NCBI RefSeq assembly: GCF_000725425.1
Contig: NZ_CP006019.1
Location: 124,001 to 188,000, forward strand
Direction of reading: 5' to 3'
From: Palaeococcus pacificus DY20341
Lineage (GTDB): Archaea > Methanobacteriota_B > Thermococci > Thermococcales > Thermococcaceae
Length of the DNA stretch: 64,000 nucleotides
The position numbers and the translations under genes are program-made. The first letter of the stretch is position 1. The number at the start of each line of letters is the position of its first letter. Below the pieces are notes generated by a model. The model ran no database searches, had not been told where the DNA came from, and was given only the letters and a program-made list of their open reading frames with translations. Shown in pieces: positions 5,700 to 18,258 of this stretch.

Positions 5700-5990
5700 A
5701 TGGGTTACACTATATACTACAGAGTAGTGTTCGTTGACGAGAAGAAAGCCTTAAGAGTGCTGGAAGAAGTGTGTACTGGACTTGGGCTTCAAATTGAAAA
5801 GAAAGGCAGTGCTATTGTAATAATCCCCAAGTGCACTTGTATCGAGCCGCTAATAATTAAAAGTGGGGAGTGGAGTTTTTCAAAAACATATAAAAAAGAG
5901 CCTTACACTTCTCTCTACAAGCTGATATTGCTCTCGCTCTCTTCTTTTGGCTCTGTGGAACTGTTCGATGATGAGGGTTTTGTTTTGTAG
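5700..5990 (+). CDS. small protein of unknown function (96 aa)
   Basis: I do not recognise the family. The 96-residue product starts MGYTIYYRVVF, has a CTCIEP motif at mid-length and a hydrophobic segment LYKLILLSLSS towards the C-terminus. The ATG follows AGGGGTGC and a TATA-like region (TATATTAC and GTATAAAG), so expression is plausible. Its last 76 bp lie opposite the 3' end of the DUF2101 gene, an unusually long convergent overlap for this genome. It could be a thermococcal orphan protein. Confidence 0.65.
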   Translation: MGYTIYYRVVFVDEKKALRVLEEVCTGLGLQIEKKGSAIVIIPKCTCIEPLIIKSGEWSFSKTYKKEPYTSLYKLILLSLSSFGSVELFDDEGFVL

Positions 5991-6679
5991 ACCTCCATTA
6001 TCTTTTTCGGCACAGCTCCTTTTAGAGTCCTCTCCTCGACCAATACCTTAACAACGCTTCCTACCTCTACTTCCTCACTTTTGTCAATCCAGTACTCCCC
6101 TGGCTTAATATTTGCCCTTATATCGTCATGGACGCTCACTTTAACGAGCTCTCCCCTTACTTCTTCGACAACTCCGTAAGTCCAATCTCTCTTGTACTTG
6201 GCCCTAAAGAGGTGCCTGAATGCTAGAACTAAAGCAAAGATTGCGATTAGGTATGCGTAGAGGTAGTAGATGTTCACCGCTATCTTCCTCAATATTAGGT
6301 AACCTAAAAAGGAAACAAATGCTATGGATGTTAGGCCGTAGTAGAATGTCCTGTAGGGTTCATACTCAATGAAAAAGCTTTGATTTCTTATTAGGAGAGC
6401 TCTTAAATACAGAGCAAAAATCACAGTTATACTCAATAAATAGACCTCACTTTGGGTGAATACCACTATCAGCAGAGCTAGGATGAGGTAGGCTATAAAA
6501 GAAAGCTGAAGCTTTAGGCTTAGCATCTCGTGTATGGTGACTTTTCTCCTGACGAGTTTCTTCAAAAATTTGAAAGTTGGGGGATTTTCTTGAGGCTGAG
6601 GATTGAGCGATTTCTTTAATGCTCTTCCAGCTGATTCTACTAACTCGCCCACTTTGTATAAAGCTTCCTCAACGTTCAT
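5915..6679 (-). CDS. DUF2101-type membrane protein
   Basis: A 254-residue membrane protein resembling DUF2101 proteins of Thermococcales. It has a soluble N-terminus (about 45 residues, starting MNVEEALYKVGELVESAG), about four or five transmembrane helices between roughly residues 50 and 155, then a soluble beta-rich C-terminal domain (VVEEVRGELVKVSVHDD, GEYWIDKSEEVEVGSVVKV) that looks like an OB/NfeD-like barrel, and a Ser/Glu-rich tail. The ATG follows GGGGTGA and lies 4 bp after the stop of the DUF2341 protein gene. It therefore appears to be the last gene of the pilin-like operon and may help anchor or assemble that structure. The function is unknown. Confidence 0.75.
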   Translation of the reverse strand: MNVEEALYKVGELVESAGRALKKSLNPQPQENPPTFKFLKKLVRRKVTIHEMLSLKLQLSFIAYLILALLIVVFTQSEVYLLSITVIFALYLRALLIRNQSFFIEYEPYRTFYYGLTSIAFVSFLGYLILRKIAVNIYYLYAYLIAIFALVLAFRHLFRAKYKRDWTYGVVEEVRGELVKVSVHDDIRANIKPGEYWIDKSEEVEVGSVVKVLVEERTLKGAVPKKIMEVYKTKPSSSNSSTEPKEESESNISL

Positions 6680-6683
6680 GATT

Positions 6684-9059
6684 TCACCCCGTGTTCAGTA
6701 AATCTTGGGCCCCTTGGGTACCAAAGAGTGCCACAGCCGTTTGATTATCAAGGAAGAAGGGAATGCTGCTTAAATCTCCGCTTGATGCGTTTCCATAAGA
6801 AATTCCCCATACCCTGTATCCCGAGGTTTTTGAACCTCCTTTAAAGTAGTAGTTTAAGAAGTAATAATCCACACTGGATTGTCCTTCCTCTGGTACTATT
6901 CCCAATGTATCGAAGAGGTTGGAGAGTTTTTCATCATAGGGTTTATGAGGCACCATGAAGCTTACCAGACCGATTGGATAATACTGGTTTCCAAATTTAA
7001 CTCCAAGCTCATCTTGCATTTGATGAGCCAGGTTCACGTATGCATCATGGTTCGTATTGCTCCCTTCGAGACGCTCGAAGAAGGACCATCCACTAGATAG
7101 CCCAAAGTACATGATATCCCCCTCTTGTTCATTGATACACTCTCGGAACGGTTGGATGTCGTAGACTCTCGCTGTTGTTGTTTGTATGGTTGGTGCTGGC
7201 TTTTGTTCTATTTGATTAGATATTGAGACTGTTGGAGAAGTCGATGCATATTTGCGGACGCGTATCCAATCCCATTCTTGATTTTTATCCCATGTCCCCA
7301 ATGCAATTGCTCCATTGTAATTTTGGTAGGCATTATATGTATTGTATATTATTGCTCCGGTATCCCATTCTAATCTTGAATTATACGTAAACCAATATAT
7401 TGTTCCTTTATGCCACCCTGCAGGAAGATTTGGATATTCATTATGATAATTCCCCCAAGCATAGTCATCTAAATAAGACCATTCTCCGGGCTGTACCTGA
7501 TTACTTCTTACCCACCATAAAGGACCCCAGGGATAGGAAGTTTGTCTAACGGCAATATAAAGTTCCGCCCAGCTGTTCTTAATATTCTGGTAGAACTCAA
7601 TTATAACTGGGGGAGTAAAAGTCTTTTTTGTGTATATGCCTGCGTAATCATTGGTAATTCTTAGTACTCCGTTAATAAGGGATACTTGGGCATTATACTG
7701 CTCCCACTTGGTACTATTCAATGTGATCTCATTAAAATCATCATAGAAGTCAAACACTTCATTTGGATTTCCTAATGTTTCTGTGCCACTTGAATCAAAT
7801 TGTATACTAAGTTTTATTTGAGAATTTGCTGGAATTGTAATATTTACCCAAATTAGAGCTTGTTTGTTAGTGGTATCCCAGCTTTCAACCCAAAAGTTGA
7901 CAGGATTACAATTTTCATCGTAGATTTCAATAACTGGTACATTGTCATCATCGTTGTCTGCAGTGTTGAAAAATGTTGTCAAGGTGGGATTTGGGAGAGT
8001 TGTGCTGTCAATAGTAATTGGAACTTGGAAATTCGTTAAATCCTGAGCCATATTGTTTTGTATTGTCATGTTTAATCTGTATTTTAAGAGGGAACACCAG
8101 CCACTACCACCATTTATATTATCAAACACCATAACACCCATGTCTCCTTCATTGAAAACATCTCTTGGGGAGGTTCTTACTCCACTTAAAGTCGTGTTGA
8201 CGATAATTGGAGCAGTGATATTTATTGAGCCGTTTAGCAGGACGTAACCTTTTGCTCCGTCTCCAGGATAGACATCTCCAAAGTGTATCTTATCAGTATC
8301 TACGCCCTTAGATAGTTTTTCAATGACGTGAGACTCACTGCTACTTCCATTACCTGCCAGAACTTTTATTGGCTTCTCAATAAGCTCTGGGAATGTGTAA
8401 TCACAGGCTTTTATTGAACGGTAGTACCTACCCCCGGTAATTGCCGAGAATATTGGGTCTTCTAAGTTGCGTATATCCACTATTGAGTAAGTGTAATTTC
8501 CGCTTTTTGGTATTGAGCCACTGTAAACTATTTTTCCGGACATGTCTGTAATCGTTATGTTTGGGATTCTAGCTTTTATAACGATTCTAAAAGAATCTAA
8601 AGGCGCTACAGTGAGTTCCATACTGTTTGCTATCACACTTACGTTTGGGGAAATCTCAAATCCTTGTTCTCTTAAGTCTTGGCTAATATTTGTGAGCCAC
8701 TTTTGGATTGTTTGTCCTTGCATTATTCTGTTAACATCATATCCACTTATAGCTGGAGAGCTACCTGTGAGGATTAGGTCTTTTATGGTCTCGTTTGCCA
8801 TTTTGGATGTTATGAAGTTGCCAGTAACAGAAACATAATCGACTACAGCCACTATAGCTCTTTTTCCAGAAATCTCTAACGCCTTTTGAAAGTCCAAGTC
8901 TAAGTATGAAATAGTCCTATAGCTTCTCTCAACTTGGGTTCTCTCGCTCTGCGCTTGGACTATTTGAGAAGACACGTCCTCATAAGTCGCTAAGAGCAGC
9001 AGCAGAGGGATTAAAAGTACGAGAACGAGTGAGTTTAATAGAAATCCTCTTCTCCTCAT
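6684..9059 (-). CDS. large class III-like signal protein with DUF2341 domain
   Basis: A 791-residue exported protein that starts MRRRGFLLNSLVLVLLIPLL, a charged n-region then a hydrophobic helix as in archaeal pilin-like proteins. From about residue 330 to 610 it carries a DUF2341-like module (LTNFQVPITIDS, WVNITIPANSQIKLSIQFD, NPNEVFDFYDDFNE), a beta-sandwich found in secreted archaeal and bacterial proteins. The flanking parts are unfamiliar. The ATG at 9059 is preferred over an in-frame GTG at 9074 because GGAGGGAAG precedes it and the N-terminus then matches its neighbours. It overlaps the previous gene's stop. It is probably a surface or filament-tip protein, which is inference. Confidence 0.85.
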   Translation of the reverse strand: MRRRGFLLNSLVLVLLIPLLLLLATYEDVSSQIVQAQSERTQVERSYRTISYLDLDFQKALEISGKRAIVAVVDYVSVTGNFITSKMANETIKDLILTGSSPAISGYDVNRIMQGQTIQKWLTNISQDLREQGFEISPNVSVIANSMELTVAPLDSFRIVIKARIPNITITDMSGKIVYSGSIPKSGNYTYSIVDIRNLEDPIFSAITGGRYYRSIKACDYTFPELIEKPIKVLAGNGSSSESHVIEKLSKGVDTDKIHFGDVYPGDGAKGYVLLNGSINITAPIIVNTTLSGVRTSPRDVFNEGDMGVMVFDNINGGSGWCSLLKYRLNMTIQNNMAQDLTNFQVPITIDSTTLPNPTLTTFFNTADNDDDNVPVIEIYDENCNPVNFWVESWDTTNKQALIWVNITIPANSQIKLSIQFDSSGTETLGNPNEVFDFYDDFNEITLNSTKWEQYNAQVSLINGVLRITNDYAGIYTKKTFTPPVIIEFYQNIKNSWAELYIAVRQTSYPWGPLWWVRSNQVQPGEWSYLDDYAWGNYHNEYPNLPAGWHKGTIYWFTYNSRLEWDTGAIIYNTYNAYQNYNGAIALGTWDKNQEWDWIRVRKYASTSPTVSISNQIEQKPAPTIQTTTARVYDIQPFRECINEQEGDIMYFGLSSGWSFFERLEGSNTNHDAYVNLAHQMQDELGVKFGNQYYPIGLVSFMVPHKPYDEKLSNLFDTLGIVPEEGQSSVDYYFLNYYFKGGSKTSGYRVWGISYGNASSGDLSSIPFFLDNQTAVALFGTQGAQDLLNTG

Positions 9060-11260
9060 CAGTCTTCCCTCCACACTCTGAGGGTTATTGTTATGGGCTC
9101 AAATAATCCGGGAATGTTGCCCATGTTTGCAAACACTATTTGAACTCCAGCTGGTAAATCCACATCAATTGGATTGGTTTGTGCTCCATCGTAGGGACTA
9201 TCTTCCCATTCTTCAGGATTAGCATCATTTTCATAGTTTAACTTATCAAAGAGCCTCAAAATTGCGTCATCAACGGCATAAGTGGTGGGATCTAGGTTGT
9301 CTATACTTATTGCCTTGTAGGGAGCATCTCCAACTAAAATCGAGCGCGTGTAGGTAGTTGAGCCATCATTGTAGTAGTATGTTAAGTTGTATCCCTTGTA
9401 TGTTGGATAGTCTTGGAGTAGTCTGGGAAACACATCTCCATAACCTGCGTAGCCTTGGATGAAGTATTTTATGATACCCCTCGTCTGTTGATATCTGTAT
9501 GATGTTCCTCCATTGCCTACACTTGTATCAAGCTGTGCCAGAAATGTATTTGCCTGACCTGGTACCATCATCCAGTTATAAAGCTTTGAATATGAAACCC
9601 TTATAGCATAAAGACCATTGGGGCCTGCATAGAACTGTCCTCCCCCATTATTCAAATTCTCATTCAGTCTTTGGGTAGTTGAAGAGCTAAAGCAGTAACC
9701 TACCCAGTAGTCAGCATACCACGGATCACTCTCCGGCGGCAGGTCATAGTTCACACTCATCTGTGAATAAGTGTCGACACCACATGCGTAAGTATAATCA
9801 CCGCTGTAGCTGATTTTTGGGTCTTGGTAGTCGATATATATCGAGAGCGGGATGCTGTATTGGGTTATTAGTGTTTTAGATATGTAGTTAATTCTTACCT
9901 CCGAATCAGGATAGCCATATAAAATTCTGTTGGCTACCCCACCACATTCAGAAACAGAACATCCATAACCATAACCTGCGCCACCATATGTGAAATATCC
10001 CGCGTCTCCTGTGTCCACAAATACTGCATCAAAGGCAACTACAAAATCAAAGACCATCTTGCTTAGGTTGTCATAGGATACCCCTATATTCTGCAATGCA
10101 GTTTTAATCTCATTGTCTGTAAACTCTACAGTCGTTACTCCCGATTCACTGGCATTTTTTGTAAGAAGAAGTGTTAAATCACCCCCAAGACCATAATAAA
10201 GGCGGACGTACTTTACATTTTTCACTTTAAATCTCATGTTAATCGAAGTGATGTTCCCTGGGACGAAGTTCTCAAGCAGGTAAAAGAATCCAGTATACTG
10301 AGAATTGATATTGTATATCTTTATTACTCCCGGATTTTTAGTGCTTAGGCTGCTGCTCCTGTACTTGATGTATACTGTGGTTCCGCTTCCTGCGCCTATT
10401 CCATCTTGTACGTACCTATATGAATAATACGCGTCGTGATACACTATTCTAAAAGTATTAGTGCCAGGCTGTAGGTATCCTGAAATATCGGGGGCGTTTG
10501 GCAAGGAGTTTTGTAGGGAGACATAATTTCCGTTTATATATACGTCTTGGGTTTCGCTGAGCCTCTTAATAAAATTACCATTTGCCTCTATGATACTCGC
10601 ATCGTTCGGTAAGGTTATATTTCGTGTTAAAATGAGGGTATTGCTGTAGCCATCACTTGAGAATGCTCCGGCCAAAACTCTCATCCATCCGTATAGATCT
10701 TCCCTTGTAACTTCCGCTTTGGTCAAATATGCCCTCGCCATATATCCTCTCGGCGTTTGATTGAATGCATAGCCGCTCAAAACTAATGTTGCTGGGGAAA
10801 CATCTTGAGCTTTTGAGTAGTTGGCGCCAAGTTTCCTCAAATATGGGCTTGTGTAGTTGTTTATAAGGAACTCATAATTGTAGTCTTTGAGTGTTCTGTT
10901 TAATATGTATCCTAAAATTATCTCCGCTTTATGTTTTAGGTTCTCTGAGGGGTAAAGAGGTTCGGTAGCCCAATAAGTTGCAGCTATTTCTAGGGGAGGC
11001 ATATTTTCATCTACTAAGTTCAAATTAAGCGTTCCATCGCTTTTCCACTGTTCGATTATGTTTTGGGGAACTAGCTCCTTCAATGCGACGGTTCTCAGGG
11101 TCGTGAGCGTGTCCTCGGCTTTGTATTTATTTTGGCCCCTCATGTAAGTTGAGTAAACCTGAGTGTTGCTCTCCATTACAATTATGCTTGTCACAAATAT
11201 CGTAACTAAGAGGAGTGAGAGCAAGGCATCGAGCGTGAAGACGAATCCTCTCCTCTTCAT
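9059..11260 (-). CDS. large pilin-like surface protein (733 aa)
   Basis: An exported protein starting MKRRGFVFTLDALLSLLLVT: basic residues, Gly, then a hydrophobic segment containing the Asp at the +5-like position of class III signal peptides. The rest is a long extracellular part rich in Tyr, Gly, Asn and Ser with several Cys (GCSVSECGG near residue 430, ACGVD and GYCFSS later) that could form disulfides. It ends ITITLRVWRED, echoing the LIKLWVWDDR end of the next-upstream gene's product. It overlaps that gene by 4 bp. It has no recognised catalytic motif. It is likely a minor pilin or adhesin subunit. Confidence 0.83.
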   Translation of the reverse strand: MKRRGFVFTLDALLSLLLVTIFVTSIIVMESNTQVYSTYMRGQNKYKAEDTLTTLRTVALKELVPQNIIEQWKSDGTLNLNLVDENMPPLEIAATYWATEPLYPSENLKHKAEIILGYILNRTLKDYNYEFLINNYTSPYLRKLGANYSKAQDVSPATLVLSGYAFNQTPRGYMARAYLTKAEVTREDLYGWMRVLAGAFSSDGYSNTLILTRNITLPNDASIIEANGNFIKRLSETQDVYINGNYVSLQNSLPNAPDISGYLQPGTNTFRIVYHDAYYSYRYVQDGIGAGSGTTVYIKYRSSSLSTKNPGVIKIYNINSQYTGFFYLLENFVPGNITSINMRFKVKNVKYVRLYYGLGGDLTLLLTKNASESGVTTVEFTDNEIKTALQNIGVSYDNLSKMVFDFVVAFDAVFVDTGDAGYFTYGGAGYGYGCSVSECGGVANRILYGYPDSEVRINYISKTLITQYSIPLSIYIDYQDPKISYSGDYTYACGVDTYSQMSVNYDLPPESDPWYADYWVGYCFSSSTTQRLNENLNNGGGQFYAGPNGLYAIRVSYSKLYNWMMVPGQANTFLAQLDTSVGNGGTSYRYQQTRGIIKYFIQGYAGYGDVFPRLLQDYPTYKGYNLTYYYNDGSTTYTRSILVGDAPYKAISIDNLDPTTYAVDDAILRLFDKLNYENDANPEEWEDSPYDGAQTNPIDVDLPAGVQIVFANMGNIPGLFEPITITLRVWRED

Positions 11261-12654
11261 CTGTCATCCCACACCCAAAGTTTTATTAAAACAGGTTCAA
11301 ACTTTGGCTCTAATAACATCCCCAGATTATCTAAGTCTCTCAAAACTACATCTCCGCTGAAGTTCTTTTCATAAAGCCAAAATTCTACGGGTTTTGCTCC
11401 GTTTTCTGATGTGAATTCTTCAAAAATCATACTCCAGGGTATCCTTACAGTAGTAGTGTTTCCCTCATAAAACTTTGGCTGCATTGTGTCGTTTTGCCAT
11501 GCCACAACGGCTTTAATATTTGAATCCGCAGCGTCTTTCTCAATAAAAATGCCTTTTAATAATGTTCCATCTAATATAGCAAATGTTAAGTTTCCAGCTT
11601 CGTTTTGGGGCACGCTAATCTCTAGATATGAATAGCCAGGAAGGTTCTGCTTGAGGTTGCCTACAATGATTGCCTCTTTTTGATTTTGAGTGAGGGTAAT
11701 AGTCCCGTTGTAGATTAGCTTTGCAACGACGAAATTTCTCGCTTGATACTCTATCCATGGCGAACGAACTTTCGACGCGTTGATTGTGGCACTATCTGTA
11801 GTTAAGCTACCGTTGATTATAGCAAAGCTATAAGTTGGGGTGGTGAGGTTGGTTGGGTAAACAGAAGTGGCCGTGATGCTTAGACTCCCTCTATCATAGC
11901 TTTCCACAGTAACCCTAACTTGGCCAATTCCGGTAATGTGAAGTGTGCACGGAGTTCCTGAACTAAAGGAGTATTTGAAGTTTGAGATAGCATTGATGGT
12001 TTCTACTATAACGTAGCTGTTTGAGGGGATACTTCCATAATATGTGTCCTGTCTGTACACGTCGATATCCTCCAAAGGAATGAATTCAAGGACATCTCCG
12101 GAGTCTAGTTGAATGTTATTTCCAAAAGGTGCAGGCGCTCCATTGAGCAGTACACTATCACATTCAACATCAAACGGGCTATTTCCCTTGTCAGAAATCC
12201 TAAAGTTTCCGCTATCTTGGGAAAGGTCCCATGTTATAAGTGGGCCCGGAAAATCTCCAGCGATACTGAGATTTTTGGTCGTTAGATAGAGTTCTATTTG
12301 AAAATCTTTCCATTTACTTAGGTTCAACAAGCTGTTCCTCGTAACTGTACTGATTATAGAAGAGTTTAAAGCTAAAATCTTGTCATAATCAAGAGCAAAG
12401 AAGTAGTCCTCACTTCTTATGCCTACAACTTTAACACTACTTGGATTGTTCTCCCATCCCTTTGGATAGCCTGGACTTTTAGTTAGAACGTCAAGCATGT
12501 TGTCAGCGATGTTTGCTCTATCATACCAATCAATTAAATTTGTAACTTCCGCTTTTATTATGTCATTGGTATTTACAACTACCCCTACTATCATTATGAT
12601 GATCACAAGTGAAAGCATGGCATCTAAAGATAAAATTTGACCTCGCCTCTTCAT
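11257..12654 (-). CDS. pilin-like surface protein (465 aa)
   Basis: Starts MKRRGQILSLDAMLSLVIII, a class III (type IV pilin-like) signal with RGQ before the processing site and a hydrophobic assembly helix. The extracellular part has no catalytic motif I can see, and predicted beta strands and many Asn/Thr/Ser suggest a glycosylated surface domain. The C-terminus EPVLIKLWVWDDR resembles that of the 733-residue neighbour, so the two may share a terminal assembly strand. 4-bp overlaps on both sides place it in a translationally coupled operon. Confidence 0.84.
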   Translation of the reverse strand: MKRRGQILSLDAMLSLVIIIMIVGVVVNTNDIIKAEVTNLIDWYDRANIADNMLDVLTKSPGYPKGWENNPSSVKVVGIRSEDYFFALDYDKILALNSSIISTVTRNSLLNLSKWKDFQIELYLTTKNLSIAGDFPGPLITWDLSQDSGNFRISDKGNSPFDVECDSVLLNGAPAPFGNNIQLDSGDVLEFIPLEDIDVYRQDTYYGSIPSNSYVIVETINAISNFKYSFSSGTPCTLHITGIGQVRVTVESYDRGSLSITATSVYPTNLTTPTYSFAIINGSLTTDSATINASKVRSPWIEYQARNFVVAKLIYNGTITLTQNQKEAIIVGNLKQNLPGYSYLEISVPQNEAGNLTFAILDGTLLKGIFIEKDAADSNIKAVVAWQNDTMQPKFYEGNTTTVRIPWSMIFEEFTSENGAKPVEFWLYEKNFSGDVVLRDLDNLGMLLEPKFEPVLIKLWVWDDR

Positions 12655-13121
12655 CCTTTCACCACTCTCACACTAATCTCTATTATTCTACCTGAATACA
12701 CTAAATTCGTACTATTCTTTGCTAAGTTCGTGTTTTTGGCTATGTCTTCAATGATAAATGACTTTATGCCGTTTGCAATAGTCGTATTGTCCACTTGGAA
12801 AGGAGTGTTTATTGTGACTAGAATCCTTGTTGTAGTGTTTGTATCGACCTGGGTTATGTTCATCACTCTAAAATGATAGTTCTCACCATTTAATGACTCC
12901 AGTGCAGGATTTAAGAGCGAATATGGGCTCTCGCTTATTTCAACGCCCATATTTAAGTAGTCGCATGCATGGGAGGCAGATGTTCTAACATAAGCTATTA
13001 CGGAAATGTTCCTATTTTCATTTAGATAGCTAGGCACTACAAAAGCTATTCCTGCCATTATGATAGCGACTATGAAGAGTGTTTCGAGAGCGGTCTGCCC
13101 TCTACGGCTCAACCTTAACAT
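12651..13121 (-). CDS. class III signal peptide (pilin-like) protein
   Basis: A 156-residue protein that begins MLRLSRRGQTALETLFIVAI. This is a clear class III signal: RRGQ, then T-A-L-E with the Glu expected at +5, then a hydrophobic helix. The remainder is a small extracellular domain (VMNITQVDTNTTTRILVTIN). It is of minor-pilin size. It overlaps both neighbours (4 bp downstream, 20 bp upstream), typical of tightly coupled pilin operons. The prepilin peptidase that would process it is not encoded in the window. Confidence 0.86.
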   Translation of the reverse strand: MLRLSRRGQTALETLFIVAIIMAGIAFVVPSYLNENRNISVIAYVRTSASHACDYLNMGVEISESPYSLLNPALESLNGENYHFRVMNITQVDTNTTTRILVTINTPFQVDNTTIANGIKSFIIEDIAKNTNLAKNSTNLVYSGRIIEISVRVVKG

Positions 13122-13539
13122 ATAGCATCTCCTCGGTAGAGTTATAATTCGCCACTATCCAAAACTCTCTTTTTGAGCTCGTCAAGGTCACGTTTGATGT
13201 TGTGAGTGGTACTGTTGAGTTTTGTGTAATTGTATAGCTCTTTCCTTCAATAGTGACGTTTATGATAATCAGATTTGAAGTCCCATCGAGCTGTATTCTT
13301 ACGCTGTCTCCAGTGTCGAGCTCAAATGGGAGAACTTCCTTCTTTTTAAATCCCTCTCCCACAGCATAAACTTTTGTTATATGGTCTCTGATGGTTATAG
13401 AGAGCGTTTTAACACTCGCTAGTGTATCAAAAGTCTCTGCATGTCCCACTTCACTGGTGGCTAAATACGTTAAGTTCACCACGGTTAGCGTGATAAGCAA
13501 AATTGCAAAAAGTATGTCCAAGCTCACCTGGCCCCTCAT
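13102..13539 (-). CDS. class III signal peptide (pilin-like) protein
   Basis: A 145-residue protein starting MRGQVSLDILFAILLITLTV, a textbook archaeal pilin signal (GQVSLD followed by a hydrophobic helix). The C-terminal domain is a short beta-rich segment ending EMLYVKVEP. The ATG at 13539 is chosen over the GTG at 13548 because GGTGGGTGAG stands immediately before it and the signal peptide is then of normal length. It is one of at least four small or medium pilin-like genes in the operon. Confidence 0.86.
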   Translation of the reverse strand: MRGQVSLDILFAILLITLTVVNLTYLATSEVGHAETFDTLASVKTLSITIRDHITKVYAVGEGFKKKEVLPFELDTGDSVRIQLDGTSNLIIINVTIEGKSYTITQNSTVPLTTSNVTLTSSKREFWIVANYNSTEEMLYVKVEP

Positions 13540-13540
13540 C

Positions 13541-14137
13541 TCACCCACCAGGATTGATATTTATTCTCAATTCACCTTTGCTCGCATCAAGTGTCCAGCT
13601 CTCTGTGCTATCTGGGTTCCACTCTACAATAATTTTAATGCTTGTAGGAAGGCTTCCGGCGTTTATAAGAATCCCGGGAAGTGATGTACCTGAAGCTGCA
13701 GGTGAATAAGATGTAACGCTTTTTGCATACATCGCTCGACTCCAAAATAGGTTTTTCTTTGCAGTGCTGGTCTCGTTGGCGGATATCGTCTTGTTTGCGC
13801 TGTCTAAAATGGCTATATACGTCCCATTTTGGTATCCTATTAGCAGCTGAGGGGTTCCACTCATGTTGAACGCTTTTGCTATAAAGTCAGCATCGTTTAG
13901 GTACTTTAGAGTAATATACGTGGTTGCTTTGGAGCCTGGGCCTTGGGCATAGACTTGAGACACTGTGTTTGAGATTGAATTAGAAAGGCTTTTAGCCTCT
14001 AAACTAATTTGAACCCTAAGGATATCAACGGATTGGGAATTTTGTGTAAATGTAATGTTGTTAACAGAATAAACTAGCAGGACAAGGAATATTGCAAAGA
14101 CAAACATGAACTCTAATGACACTTGGCCCTTTTTCAT
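13541..14137 (-). CDS. class III signal peptide (pilin-like) protein
   Basis: A 198-residue product starting MKKGQVSLEFMFVFAIFLVL, the canonical KGQVSLE type IV pilin-like motif with Glu at +5 and a hydrophobic helix. It is the first gene after a TATA element (14173-14181) and has GGAAGTGAG before its ATG, so it probably leads the pilin part of the operon. The extracellular part is Ser/Thr/Asn-rich with one PGG at the C-terminus. It is the best candidate for the major subunit. Confidence 0.87.
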   Translation of the reverse strand: MKKGQVSLEFMFVFAIFLVLLVYSVNNITFTQNSQSVDILRVQISLEAKSLSNSISNTVSQVYAQGPGSKATTYITLKYLNDADFIAKAFNMSGTPQLLIGYQNGTYIAILDSANKTISANETSTAKKNLFWSRAMYAKSVTSYSPAASGTSLPGILINAGSLPTSIKIIVEWNPDSTESWTLDASKGELRININPGG

Positions 14138-14172
14138 ACTCTCACTTCCATGTCTATACTATTACTACGAAA

Positions 14173-14181
14173 CTATTTAAC
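14173..14181 (-). promoter_or_regulatory. internal TATA box before the pilin-like genes
   Basis: On the minus strand GTTAAATAG lies about 36-44 nt before the ATG of the first pilin-like gene, and just after the stop of the membrane-protein gene. This suggests that the pilin genes can be transcribed separately from the CetZ part of the block. Confidence 0.45.
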
Positions 14182-14186
14182 AGTTG

Positions 14187-14804
14187 TTACTTATTTTCAG
14201 CCACATCTTCCTCTTTTACGGTGGCAATCGTGTTTATTCCCCTCTTTTTGATGTCTATACCAAAATAGTCATAGTTAAAGACCTTAAAACCATACTTCTC
14301 TTTGTCGAGTGGATGGTTAGCTATAAGCTCTTTTAACTCATCAATAAAAAACTGAGTCAGCTGGTAGTATCCAAAGTCAAGGAACTCCTTTTTGTACTCT
14401 CGTAGGAATATAAGGAGGGGCAACATGCTTAGTCCGACCAGTAACAGGGCTTCTCTGTAAATGATACTCAAAATCGCGGTTATTCCAGCAAAGCTTAAAA
14501 TAGCTATTGTGGTGATTTTTATCTTGTTTCTTATTTCTTTCATCCGATTTACTCTGCTTTCCCATATATCCAGCAGAGCCGGGTTGTAAAAATCAAAGGC
14601 CGTATGCCTCTTCCCTTTTTGGATTCTCTGCCTTATCAAGTCATCCCAGTCATCTTGATAGTATATAATCTCTCCTTTATTCTTTGCTCTCTCTGCATCG
14701 AGTGAAGAGATTATCCTAATTATGTCTTCCGCGCTCTCGTGGGCGATGTGGGAGTAAACCTCCTTCTCATTGAGCTCTAGAGCAACCTCGACTGAGTCTT
14801 TCAT
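14187..14804 (-). CDS. two-helix membrane protein next to CetZ
   Basis: A 205-residue protein I do not recognise. The N-terminal half is soluble and charged (MKDSVEVALELNEKEVYSHI, then RQRIQKGKRHTAFDFYNP). Two adjacent transmembrane helices follow at about residues 97-135 (ITTIAILSFAGITAILSII, ALLLVGLSMLPLLIFL), with a cytoplasmic C-terminal domain after them. Its ATG overlaps the cetZ stop by 4 bp, so the two are translated together. The topology, with both ends inside, would suit a membrane anchor for the tubulin-like GTPase. That role is inferred from position only. Confidence 0.8.
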   Translation of the reverse strand: MKDSVEVALELNEKEVYSHIAHESAEDIIRIISSLDAERAKNKGEIIYYQDDWDDLIRQRIQKGKRHTAFDFYNPALLDIWESRVNRMKEIRNKIKITTIAILSFAGITAILSIIYREALLLVGLSMLPLLIFLREYKKEFLDFGYYQLTQFFIDELKELIANHPLDKEKYGFKVFNYDYFGIDIKKRGINTIATVKEEDVAENK

Positions 14805-15892
14805 TCCACCTCACCTGGGTATATGTCGTCAAAGTCTGGCAGACCTTGTAAAAGCTCTTTTTTCTTTGTTTCTGCCTCTTCTTTGGCTTCCATAAATGAT
14901 TGAGCATAATTCCTGGCAGTAATTATTATGTCCTCTATGCTCTTGCTTTCATAGATACCGCTTAGCAGTGTCACCACTTCGACTTCTCTTTCCCTGGGAT
15001 CTGGATAAAAGCCCCTAAAGATTTGCTTTCCCTTTATCTTGTGGGTTAGATAGTTCAAAGCCTCAAAAATTTCGTTGGCCTTTAACACTTCTGGTGGGCC
15101 ATGAATGGCAATTAGCCCATACAAAGCGGATTCTATGTTTGCCTCTAAATACAGCCCTTCGCTTTCAAAGGACTTCAAAATTAAGCGGGATAGGTTTTTT
15201 AGCTTTGAGGCATCTTCTTTTGCATAGCCGATGGTTGCAAAGCTTCCAAAAGCTTTAAGCACAAACTTTAAGTCGCTTCCATCAAGAGTCTGCTCCCCTG
15301 GGATGTCAATTAACGCTAAAAGTGATGCGATGCGCTCGACAATTGTATAATTTATCTTTTCATAGGCCTTACTTATATCATCACCGCTTTCTCTGAGCTT
15401 ATTGTTGTCTATAGCCACTATTGAATCTGCAACTTTTGAGAGCTTATCTATAGTTATGGCAGCGTTTATTGTGGGCCTTATTCCTTCTTCTTTCAAGGGC
15501 AGAGCGCCTATTGCGACAACCAGTGAATCGGGATACTCATTTTTTAAAGCCTCTGCTAGTATGGGTGTTCCCCCTGCTCCCGTTCCCCCTCCAAAACCAA
15601 AAGTTAAAAAGAAGATGTCAATATCTTCTCTTCCCATTATTGAGTCTATCTTGCGCATTATCATTGACAAATCGCGCTTCATAGCCTCTCTGCCTAGTAT
15701 TGGATTTGCATTTACTCCTTTTCCTCCAACGATGCTGTCTCCTATGAGTATCCTCCTCTCATGGGGAACGTGCTTTAAGTACTCTAAATCTCCTTTGGAT
15801 GTGTTTATAGCCAAGGTCTCAAAGTCGACCAATGCGAATAGGTCAGCTATCTTAGTCCCGCACTGACCTATTCCAATGATTAGAGCTCTCAT
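14801..15892 (-). CDS. CetZ/FtsZ-superfamily tubulin-like GTPase
   Basis: A 363-residue cytoskeletal GTPase. Residues 7-12 (GIGQCG) resemble the tubulin GQCG loop. The glycine-rich nucleotide loop at 101-109 is GGGTGAGGT, as in CetZ, instead of GGGTGTGAA of FtsZ. The T7 loop region at 202-207 is TLDGSD, keeping the two Asp needed for GTP hydrolysis across the subunit interface but not the usual first Asn. CetZ proteins in haloarchaea control cell shape and motility rather than division. GAGGTGATT precedes the ATG. It lies between a secreted toroid protein and pilin-like genes, which points to positioning of a surface structure. Confidence 0.88.
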   Translation of the reverse strand: MRALIIGIGQCGTKIADLFALVDFETLAINTSKGDLEYLKHVPHERRILIGDSIVGGKGVNANPILGREAMKRDLSMIMRKIDSIMGREDIDIFFLTFGFGGGTGAGGTPILAEALKNEYPDSLVVAIGALPLKEEGIRPTINAAITIDKLSKVADSIVAIDNNKLRESGDDISKAYEKINYTIVERIASLLALIDIPGEQTLDGSDLKFVLKAFGSFATIGYAKEDASKLKNLSRLILKSFESEGLYLEANIESALYGLIAIHGPPEVLKANEIFEALNYLTHKIKGKQIFRGFYPDPREREVEVVTLLSGIYESKSIEDIIITARNYAQSFMEAKEEAETKKKELLQGLPDFDDIYPGEVE

Positions 15893-15900
15893 CTATTTAA

Positions 15901-18150
15901 TCACCTCACTATCTCTGCGCTTAGCTCATCAACGCTTGCCTTTCCGTCGTAGTTTGTATCATTAAATTGAACTATCAATACTTTTCCGTTCAAATATCTA
16001 ATCAATCCTGAGTCGAATAGTGTTTTAACGGCGTCACTCAAATCGTCTTTGTATAATACAAATAGGATAACTCCTTTTTCATACTTTCCAGGGATTAGGA
16101 CAATCGTTTTATCAAGCGGGTAACTCTTTCCTTCTATCGTGACTACCGTGCTTCCAACTTCAAAGCTCACATATGGGTTGTAGTCCGCAAGCTTAAATGT
16201 GCTGTAGTTTGCTAGGACTATATAGTTGCCATCACTAAACTCTTTGAACTTTTCCCTGCTTACATTTGCTCCGAATAGCTTATCTACGGCATCCTTAACT
16301 GTTGAGGCTGTTTCGTTCCTATCATCTATATAGCTAATTGTGAACTTCTCCTCTCCAAGGAGCCTTATGACATCGTATAAACCTGTTCTAGGTATAAACT
16401 TAAAGTTCGACAAATAGAGCGTTTTTAAGGATGTATCTACTACTGTCTCTGGCTCTTTATCCTCTACCCACTTTAATATCTCATCTCTTAAATTGTAGCC
16501 TAGCTTGTATAGCAGTTCTGTCGCTCTTATAGTGAGCTCTATGCTCGGTTTTCCTTGGTACATCAGCACGTTGGCTATGTAGCTGTCCTTCACAATAGGC
16601 CATGCTCCATCTTCAGTCCTCTGATCTAGGAGCCATTCTATATGTGGTTGAAGCTCCTCTCTGCTGGATATTGGGTAAAGAGCTTCTAAAACCTCTAAAG
16701 TCGTTGAGACGTCTTTTGAAAGCATATAAGAGTAGTATTTAGTTTTTGTGAATGTTCCCCATCCACTGCTGGAGATTGATAGCAACCATTCTTTTGCTTT
16801 TTGCACATCGGGGTCTTCTGAAGAGACGCCCAATGCGAGTAGTGCTTTAATTGCCAAAGCTGTATCGTAAGGTTGAGGTCCTAAGAAAGCTCCCCACTTT
16901 CCGTCGCTCCTCTTTAAGCTTTTGATGAGCGTTATCTGCTCCTGCTTTTGAGTCTCATTTAAGAGGTTAAACTCCAGTAGCGTCAGTAGAGCATAGATGT
17001 GCGCAGGATAAATCTGGCCTCTCTCCTTTGCAATTTGGGAGAGGGCTTCAAATCTGTTCTCTGTCCAATTTAGCCCCTTGTCTATGCTTACATCCCTAAA
17101 ATAACATAGTTTTAGGGCTTTTAATGCATAATATGTAGCTTTTTCATTTGATGAGAGCCCATAAATATAGCTCCAGCTCCCATCGTCATTTTGCAGAGCT
17201 TTCAAAGCTTTACATGACTCTTCAAAGGGGTTCTCCGGAGTTTCGCTTAGCTTGTCACTTACTAATGCAAAGCTCAGCGTTGCATAAGAAGAGGTTTCTA
17301 CGATTTCTGCGCTTTTCATTAAAAATGCAGGTTGGTTTGCCCAGTAAACGGGATCATCATTTTTGATATCTTCCAAAATAAGAAGAGCTTTCGCAACATC
17401 GAAGCTCACGCCCTCGTAAAGGGTCACTACATACGTTACCATTGCCCTTTCTCTTTGAGTGAGTGAGTCATTGAGGAGAGCCTCTCTCAACTTTTCTATC
17501 CTCTCGCTTAAGTCCTTTGGAGTGTATCCAATGTTGTAATATGCTATGAGCTTTAGTGCTTCAATTTCTTTCTCAGTAAGTCCAGGATAGCTCTCTATTT
17601 TTTCCAGATATTCCACTGCGTTTTTCAACATGTAGGAGCTTTCCCATGAGTATGATCTGCTCCCAAGAGCCCAAGTTGCAATTACACTTGGGTAAAAGTC
17701 GCTTTGAGTGTCTTCAACATATCCCCATGCCTCTCCATTAAAAGAATCTTTTATGAACGTGACACCTGAATCAGTAGCTCTCCTGACAGTGGTGAACCTT
17801 GAGGTTCCCATTTCATAATGGTTAAGAGCATTGGATAGTGCAATTACAGCATAGGCTGTGCTTAAAACGTCACTCTCATGTCCTTCCCTATAGCCCCATC
17901 CTCCATTTGGGTTTTGGGCATTTAGAAGTAAGTCCACATATTCGTCGATATAGGGGGATAAGTCTTCTCCAACTTTTCCTTCAGATTCCACTATTGCCAT
18001 GAGGGCCAGACTAATATCCCTCGTTTCGCTAGATATGTCTTTTGAAGTTTTGATAAAATCAGTGGCTTTGTCTAATATTGGATTGGCTGTTACGTTTGCG
18101 TATGGAATCAGGAGCATAACGATAAACATTAATGATAAAATACGCTTCAT
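15901..18150 (-). CDS. secreted alpha/alpha-toroid (terpene cyclase-like repeat) protein
   Basis: A 749-residue exported protein with an N-terminal signal peptide (MKRILSLMFIVMLLIPYANV, cut near ANA/NP). The body carries repeats of the prenyltransferase/squalene cyclase toroid type: QNPNGGWGYREG near residue 95, DDGSWSYIYG, SDGKWGAFLG, SSGWGTF and EDGAWPIV. I see no DxDD cyclase motif, so it is probably a binding scaffold and not an enzyme. It ends in one EF-hand/dockerin-like calcium loop, DTNYDGKASVDEL. It starts the block upstream of cetZ, 8 bp from it. A protein-binding surface role is inferred. Confidence 0.83.
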   Translation of the reverse strand: MKRILSLMFIVMLLIPYANVTANPILDKATDFIKTSKDISSETRDISLALMAIVESEGKVGEDLSPYIDEYVDLLLNAQNPNGGWGYREGHESDVLSTAYAVIALSNALNHYEMGTSRFTTVRRATDSGVTFIKDSFNGEAWGYVEDTQSDFYPSVIATWALGSRSYSWESSYMLKNAVEYLEKIESYPGLTEKEIEALKLIAYYNIGYTPKDLSERIEKLREALLNDSLTQRERAMVTYVVTLYEGVSFDVAKALLILEDIKNDDPVYWANQPAFLMKSAEIVETSSYATLSFALVSDKLSETPENPFEESCKALKALQNDDGSWSYIYGLSSNEKATYYALKALKLCYFRDVSIDKGLNWTENRFEALSQIAKERGQIYPAHIYALLTLLEFNLLNETQKQEQITLIKSLKRSDGKWGAFLGPQPYDTALAIKALLALGVSSEDPDVQKAKEWLLSISSSGWGTFTKTKYYSYMLSKDVSTTLEVLEALYPISSREELQPHIEWLLDQRTEDGAWPIVKDSYIANVLMYQGKPSIELTIRATELLYKLGYNLRDEILKWVEDKEPETVVDTSLKTLYLSNFKFIPRTGLYDVIRLLGEEKFTISYIDDRNETASTVKDAVDKLFGANVSREKFKEFSDGNYIVLANYSTFKLADYNPYVSFEVGSTVVTIEGKSYPLDKTIVLIPGKYEKGVILFVLYKDDLSDAVKTLFDSGLIRYLNGKVLIVQFNDTNYDGKASVDELSAEIVR

Positions 18151-18187: not shown

Positions 18188-18199
18188 AATAAATAAGTT
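18188..18199 (-). promoter_or_regulatory. TATA box of the toroid-cetZ operon
   Basis: The minus strand reads AACTTATTTATT about 40-50 nt before the ATG at 18150, and GGGAGGGTGA is the ribosome-binding site. This is the probable main promoter of the 18.15-5.9 kb block. Confidence 0.5.
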
Positions 18200-18258
18200 T
18201 TTCCTAAGCAGTGAAAACACTAGAAAAGCAAAAGAGGGTTAAAAAGGCCAAACCTCAG

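Follow-up and report, generated by a model that had tools for sequence, protein, structure and literature searches.

We analyzed a 64,000-nucleotide stretch of DNA (the window; G000:C1:124001-188000) from the complete 1.86 Mb genome of Palaeococcus pacificus DY20341, which belongs to the Thermococcales. Between positions 5915 and 18150 of the window, ten co-directional genes lie on the minus strand. In the order from 18150 to 5915, they encode a secreted α/α-toroid protein, CetZ (a tubulin-superfamily GTPase), a membrane protein that we call M2, three small proteins with class III signals (S1, S2, and S3), three large ones (L1, L2, and L3), and a DUF2101 protein. An earlier note on this DNA had counted nine genes instead of ten. 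The proteins and motifs that it named are all present on the minus strand where it had placed them, with GGGTGAGGT, GQVSLE, GQVSLD, and GQTALE all in the translations, and its description of 4-20 bp overlaps or short gaps was accurate as well. There are three gaps of 4-49 bp (8 bp between the toroid and CetZ genes, 49 bp between M2 and S1, and 4 bp between L3 and DUF2101), and the other junctions overlap by 4-20 bp. We searched the window's proteins against Pfam with the family cut-offs, and M2, L1, L2, S2, and S3 matched no Pfam family above cut-off.

We compared this cluster across 40 genomes from all six genera of Thermococcales. All 40 share the order and the strand of the ten genes, barring single genes that are undetected or have moved: G019 has lost the toroid gene, leaving a gap of only 151 bp between the upstream gene and cetZ (L052 5758-5910); DUF2101 has been relocated by 35 kb in G007; and S3 was undetected in three genomes. 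The junctions are conserved too, with overlaps of about 8 bp for CetZ/M2, about 20 bp for S2/S3, and 4 bp for both S3/L1 and L1/L2. Because every genome repeats this arrangement, with similar overlaps, the cluster is not a product of chance. The earlier note had suggested checking by synteny whether cetZ and the pilin genes are separate in relatives; they are adjacent in all 40, so the case that it named as a refutation does not hold. Within the order, mean pairwise identity is 86% for CetZ, 86% for flanking housekeeping genes, 60% for M2, and 32-50% for the pilins and the toroid. In other words, CetZ evolves slowly, at the pace of the housekeeping genes beside it.

CetZ (363 amino acids; 14801..15892, minus strand) matches both Tubulin (PF00091, 106 bits) and CetZ_C (PF21011, 57.7 bits, versus a cut-off of 21.6) above cut-off. 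It has the features of a tubulin/FtsZ-type GTPase, namely the T4 motif GGGTG[A/S]G, here as GGGTGAGGT, and two invariant aspartates in the T7 region (D204 and D207). It also has a CetZ-type C-terminal domain and is nearer to CetZ than to FtsZ: the best matches in the Protein Data Bank (PDB) were 4b46, 4b45, and 3zid, which we take to be CetZ structures, and all three scored above every FtsZ. The charged and variable tail of CetZ ends with the motif GLPDFDDIY (residues 350-358; 14819..14845, minus strand), which fits GLPDF(D/E)D..Y in 41 of 41 sequences. Beyond the motif, the ends of these proteins vary in both length and sequence. FtsZ binds its membrane anchors via a conserved short peptide that terminates a variable tail. 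The CetZ of M. thermophila (3zid) aligned through this region as INDLEEIY, which is no more than suggestive.

The next gene encodes M2 (205 amino acids; 14187..14804, minus strand). From the alignment and an AlphaFold model, M2 is predicted to have a cytosolic N-terminal domain, a two-helix membrane hairpin, and a cytosolic C-terminal part, whose mean column conservations are 0.88, 0.47, and 0.63, respectively. The model (pLDDT 80) is helical, with a small hairpin at the C-terminus. As judged by alignment, the N-terminal domain is almost as conserved as CetZ, and it was seen in Thermococcales only. Across a larger sample of 94 genomes of the order, the 89 that have M2 are also the 89 that have true CetZ, which is partly a product of the adjacency of their genes, and the five genomes that lack both are incomplete assemblies (73-91% complete). 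Outside of the Thermococcales, we found only weak matches to the C-terminal part of M2 (E = 3e-4 to 7.5e-3). We inspected two of these, from sister families (L091 6135-6836 and L093 9679-10581). Both are weak relatives of the C-terminal half of M2, and their genes have amino-acid permease genes nearby but neither pilins nor tubulins as neighbors. Its conserved N-terminal domain and predicted topology make M2 a fitting candidate for the membrane partner of CetZ, and a physical link from CetZ through M2 to the pilus is plausible but unproven.

The six class III signal proteins differ in where an acidic residue falls after the predicted cleavage site (shown with a slash). In the putative minor pilins S1 (KG/QVSLE; 13541..14137), S2 (RG/QVSLD; 13102..13548), and S3 (RG/QTALE; 12651..13121), all on the minus strand, there is a Glu, Asp, and Glu, respectively, at +5. 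S1 also matches PF04021 above cut-off, and its Glu is conserved in 40 of 40 relatives. The large proteins L1 (RG/QILSLD; 11257..12654, minus strand) and L2 (RG/FVFTLD; 9059..11260, minus strand) each have an Asp at +6. The AlphaFold model of L2 (pLDDT 82) has a pilin helix at residues 10-57, followed by beta-rich domains, and its structural matches were local, to jelly-roll proteins only, and low scoring (TMq about 0.1). Neither L2 nor L3 had a sequence match in the PDB. L3 (6684..9074, minus strand) contains DUF2341 (PF10102, 71.7 bits) and is a predicted pilus-tip adhesin; its true start is likely to be the internal ATG at 9059, which would create a TGATG overlap with L2. L3 has no acid at +5 or +6, and the relatives that could be read have Asn at +4. 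Among the pseudopilins of type II secretion, the one without Glu5 is GspK, which lies at the tip. Because L3 has DUF2341 and, like GspK, is missing the N-terminal acid, it is the best candidate for the pilus tip, and by this analogy we infer that L3 may lie there.

As the earlier note had observed, a pilus ATPase and platform are absent from the window (no match to PF00437 or PF00482). They are found at 75.2-81.5 kb on the same contig (G000:C1; L011 3171-9457), 59 kb from cetZ, where the ATPase gene (G000:C1:77638-79464) is followed by genes for two T2SSF platform proteins and preceded by genes for a DUF515 protein and a secreted protein. The genome contains the other components of clade 1 pili (with the clade taken from PMC4858521) as well. 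Besides the secretion ATPase and two TadC-type platform proteins, these are five or more class III minor pilins with a DUF2341 protein (there are six class III proteins here, and L3 has DUF2341); an EppA-type peptidase with PF06819 and PF01478 (L015:280-1407, at about 808 kb); and small stand-alone major-type pilins, for which about 60-70 amino acids is the expected size (a 64-amino-acid protein and an adjacent one, in tandem at 631.6-631.9 kb, with QGAIEYL and QGSLEYL). There is also a frame for a 57-amino-acid pilin at 808.6 kb, near the peptidase. The earlier note had proposed a surface filament or adhesin system. A conserved unit of CetZ plus pilins does exist, but because the ATPase and platform are encoded at a separate locus, the cluster appears to belong to a complete type IV pilus and not to a machine-less adhesin set.

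The ATPase locus has two other features. The search match to the pilus ATPase is split at residue 447 in roughly half of the relatives, within a frame of 816-1234 amino acids; this is consistent with an intein or a similar in-frame insert, which is absent from this genome. Beside the ATPase locus (L011 10083-14920), we noticed by eye genes for a MoxR-type AAA ATPase, a DUF58-like protein, and small membrane proteins, which might be an envelope-linked operon.

Our preferred explanation, which we hold with moderate confidence, is that this cluster is an operon for the tip and the minor pilins of the clade 1 type IV pilus of Thermococcales, to which a cytoskeletal module is attached. S1-S3, L1, and L2 would form the initiating complex of minor pilins, and L3, which carries DUF2341 and is without the N-terminal acid that is needed for seating beneath another subunit, would be the adhesin cap. 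The EpdL-like ATPase, the two platform proteins, the EppA peptidase, and the small major-type pilins would build the shaft. CetZ would polymerize in the cytoplasm, where its tail (GLPDFDD..Y) could dock on M2, and together CetZ and M2 would form a scaffold, bound to the membrane, by which the pilus machines are positioned or supported. The toroid would be an accessory secreted protein at the surface. Such a pilus would likely serve for adhesion and, if Methanococcus is a guide, for DNA uptake. (In M. maripaludis, the genes are likewise divided between an operon of minor pilins that includes a DUF2341 gene and an epdLKJ locus elsewhere, and transposon insertions at either one prevent natural transformation; natural competence is also described for T. 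kodakarensis and P. furiosus; PMC10133366.) A more specific proposal is that M2 is a dedicated receptor for CetZ, whose tail would bind the cytosolic domain of M2, and that patches of CetZ and M2 dock the ATPase and platform independently of the archaellum. We offer this only tentatively, and doubt that all of it is right.

The earlier note had also described the cluster as an operon, but a second promoter-like element weakens the view that there is a single operon. (A scan for sigma-70 promoters is not meaningful for archaea.) The first element, P1, is the BRE/TATA-like GGAAAAACTTATTTATT (18188..18204, minus strand), which precedes the toroid gene by about 45 nt. GGAAAA and a box of the TTTATTTAT type are kept in most of 39 loci, at about -40 to -54, and in genus g4 the box is positioned further upstream. 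The second, P2, is the TATA-like TTAAATA (14174..14180, minus strand), 43 nt upstream of S1, in the gap between M2 and S1, which is the longest in this window's cluster. Of 40 relatives, 39 have TTAAATA at -38 to -52 from the start of S1, versus about 3% expected by shuffling, which is not a formal test, as the relatives are not independent. Because this word may precede, span, or follow the stop codon of M2, in differing codon phases, it is not explained by the protein sequence of M2. The two elements suggest that toroid-CetZ-M2 and pilins-DUF2101 may be driven separately, with read-through possible. CetZ and M2 would be in one transcription unit. We considered whether EarA might control P2, and rejected this, as the TACATA-type EarA motif that is reported for archaellum promoters was not evident by eye near P2.

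ArlJ, the archaellum platform protein, is absent from 18 of the 94 Thermococcales genomes. Ten of these 18 genomes are at least 95% complete (G016, G026, G031, G038, G040, G049, G060, G073, G076, and G087). They represent three genera, five of them are single contigs, and all ten keep CetZ, M2, and PilB, with CetZ and M2 at their usual sequence level. Where we inspected the loci (six of the ten genomes), the whole cluster is kept. In G019, which lacks the toroid, only a fragment of ArlJ, with a TGA in frame, is left, and the cluster is kept except for the toroid and S3. Because genomes without ArlJ retain CetZ, M2, and the pilus ATPase, CetZ follows the pilus and not the archaellum. It has some precedent that CetZ would instead serve the archaellum and the polar cap, with the pilin genes as incidental neighbors: CetZ1 of Haloferax affects cell shape and the placement of surface machinery, including the archaellum (PMC11621097), and P. 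furiosus has a polar cap whose composition is unknown (PMC5517150). But the ten genomes, and one more with a broken ArlJ, already disfavor this idea, and we consider it very improbable.

Pilus-type ATPases are more widespread than CetZ. In the sister class, 15 of 21 genomes have related ATPases, at 34-41% identity. (The alignments of the ATPase homologs of G095, G099-G105, and G113 often cross one in-frame TGA.) Used by itself, PF21011 detects CetZ only weakly outside of the haloarchaea (among the controls, it matched only in Haloferax), and we rechecked the sister families with a profile of the Thermococcales CetZ. In the same genomes, tubulin matches to this profile were at best at the level of FtsZ, mostly with two per genome. 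Also, unlike here, descriptions of the Epd pilus of M. maripaludis mention no CetZ, M2, or toroid (PMC3875500, PMC10133366). Because of the sister-family ATPases without CetZ, and because those descriptions are silent about CetZ, CetZ is not a core part of the pilus. Within the class, the phyletic pattern indicates that CetZ is an order-specific addition to the pilus that is retained when the archaellum is lost.

Several of these results weigh against our preferred explanation. Besides the sister families, whose pilus-type ATPases occur in the absence of CetZ, and the silence about CetZ in M. maripaludis, P2 separates CetZ-M2 from the pilins, and the ATPase gene never adjoins cetZ in the complete genomes that we compared (the closest case is about 30 kb, in G011). 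M2 has no recognizable fold relative, with no match in the PDB at E ≤ 0.001. Alternatively, CetZ might act in cell shape or general polarity, as CetZ1 does for shape in Haloferax (PMC11621097), with M2 as its anchor and no physical link to the pilus; adjacency to the pilins would then reflect only the co-expression of genes for surface adaptation. The separate promoter-like element of the pilins and the sister-family ATPases both fit this scenario, which we think is possible but somewhat doubtful. Against it stand the adjacency in 40 of 40 genomes, over six genera, and a second association, that of cetZ2 with pilB2/C2 in haloarchaea (PMC9856176); together these exceed what one would expect if genes with unrelated roles were simply expressed at the same time.

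The toroid (749 amino acids; 15901..18150, minus strand) has a Sec signal, no C-terminal anchor, and an EF-hand-like loop at its C-terminus (DTNYDGKASVDE). It matches SQHop_cyclase_N/C and Prenyltrans in Pfam, and its nearest solved relatives are squalene-cyclase-fold proteins. Among 31 homologs, the invariant residues are those of QW-type motifs. There is no invariant catalytic DXDD, and the sole invariant acid, D323, is itself in a QW-type motif. Because the QW motifs are kept and the catalytic acids are not conserved, the toroid is probably a surface or binding protein, and we rejected the idea that it is an active terpene or squalene cyclase. We also rejected it as an essential core part, as it is cleanly absent from G019 while the cluster remains. 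In another scenario, the class III proteins would form, instead of a pilus, a short pseudopilus, a secretion device, or a bindosome-like complex, with the toroid as its substrate or partner and CetZ to position it. The toroid's secretion signal and lack of an anchor, with P1 upstream, would fit, as would L2, with its pilin helix and large beta domains, and the great size of three of the six class III proteins. However, the genome has a full set of pilus ATPase, platform, peptidase, and major pilins, G019 keeps the remainder of the cluster without the toroid, and the related system of M. maripaludis makes visible pili (PMC3875500). We view this scenario as unlikely.

The last gene of the cluster encodes a predicted membrane protein of the DUF2101 family (5915..6679, minus strand; PF09874, 236 bits). 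Across 115 genomes and 14 controls, this family is confined to the Thermococcales. A convergent gene of 96 amino acids (5700-5990, plus strand) overlaps the 3' end of DUF2101 by 76 bp, and it is in the same position in all 40 genomes compared.

The link between CetZ and pilins, which is the core of our finding, is already published (PMC4858521, PMC9856176). Makarova 2016 described clade 1 loci, with an ATPase, two TadC proteins, and several minor pilins; noted an FtsZ-family GTPase and a squalene cyclase in the Thermococcal loci, crediting Szabo 2007; and proposed that DUF2341 proteins are tip adhesins (PMC4858521). Brown and Duggin 2023 found that pilin-family genes adjoin cetZ in all 15 Thermococcales analyzed, and suggested that CetZ may have a scaffolding role in type IV pili (PMC9856176). 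The accessible part of that paper describes this neighborhood with no mention of the promoter split, the tail motif, M2 as a partner, retention without ArlJ, or the pattern of acids at +5, at +6, or at neither; these are new and testable specifics, which are not stated in the cited papers so far as those are accessible. How CetZ is held at the membrane is not addressed in the cited CetZ literature. In the Thermococcales, the cluster has just one CetZ, one candidate anchor, and a defined cargo, in hosts that are genetically tractable and naturally competent, and its survival without ArlJ points to the pilus, and not swimming, as the constant partner of CetZ. Because of the tail, M2, the two promoter-like elements, and survival without the archaellum platform gene, the idea of a skeleton-guided pilus can now be tested. 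If the link between CetZ and M2 is real, this would be a rare case of a prokaryotic tubulin-family polymer that places a surface filament.

The closest known systems each resemble the cluster in part. Compared with clade 1 in general (PMC4858521), CetZ, M2, and DUF2101 are not general parts, and where the argument for the tip was DUF2341, we add the missing N-terminal acid. Type II secretion has a minor pilin set, GspH-I-J-K, in which the large tip member, GspK, is without the +5 glutamate; L3 may be likened to GspK by its missing acid, but L3 has DUF2341, and L1 and L2 have the acid at +6. The regulon of cetZ2 with pilB2/pilC2 in haloarchaea also has a CetZ gene beside genes for a type IV pilus, but it has another CetZ subfamily and another pilus regulon, an adjacent ATPase and platform, and a patchy distribution like that of a mobile element (PMC9856176). 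The Epd pilus of M. maripaludis, like the system here, has a minor-pilin operon with DUF2341, an unlinked ATPase and platform, and a dedicated EppA (PMC3875500, PMC10133366).

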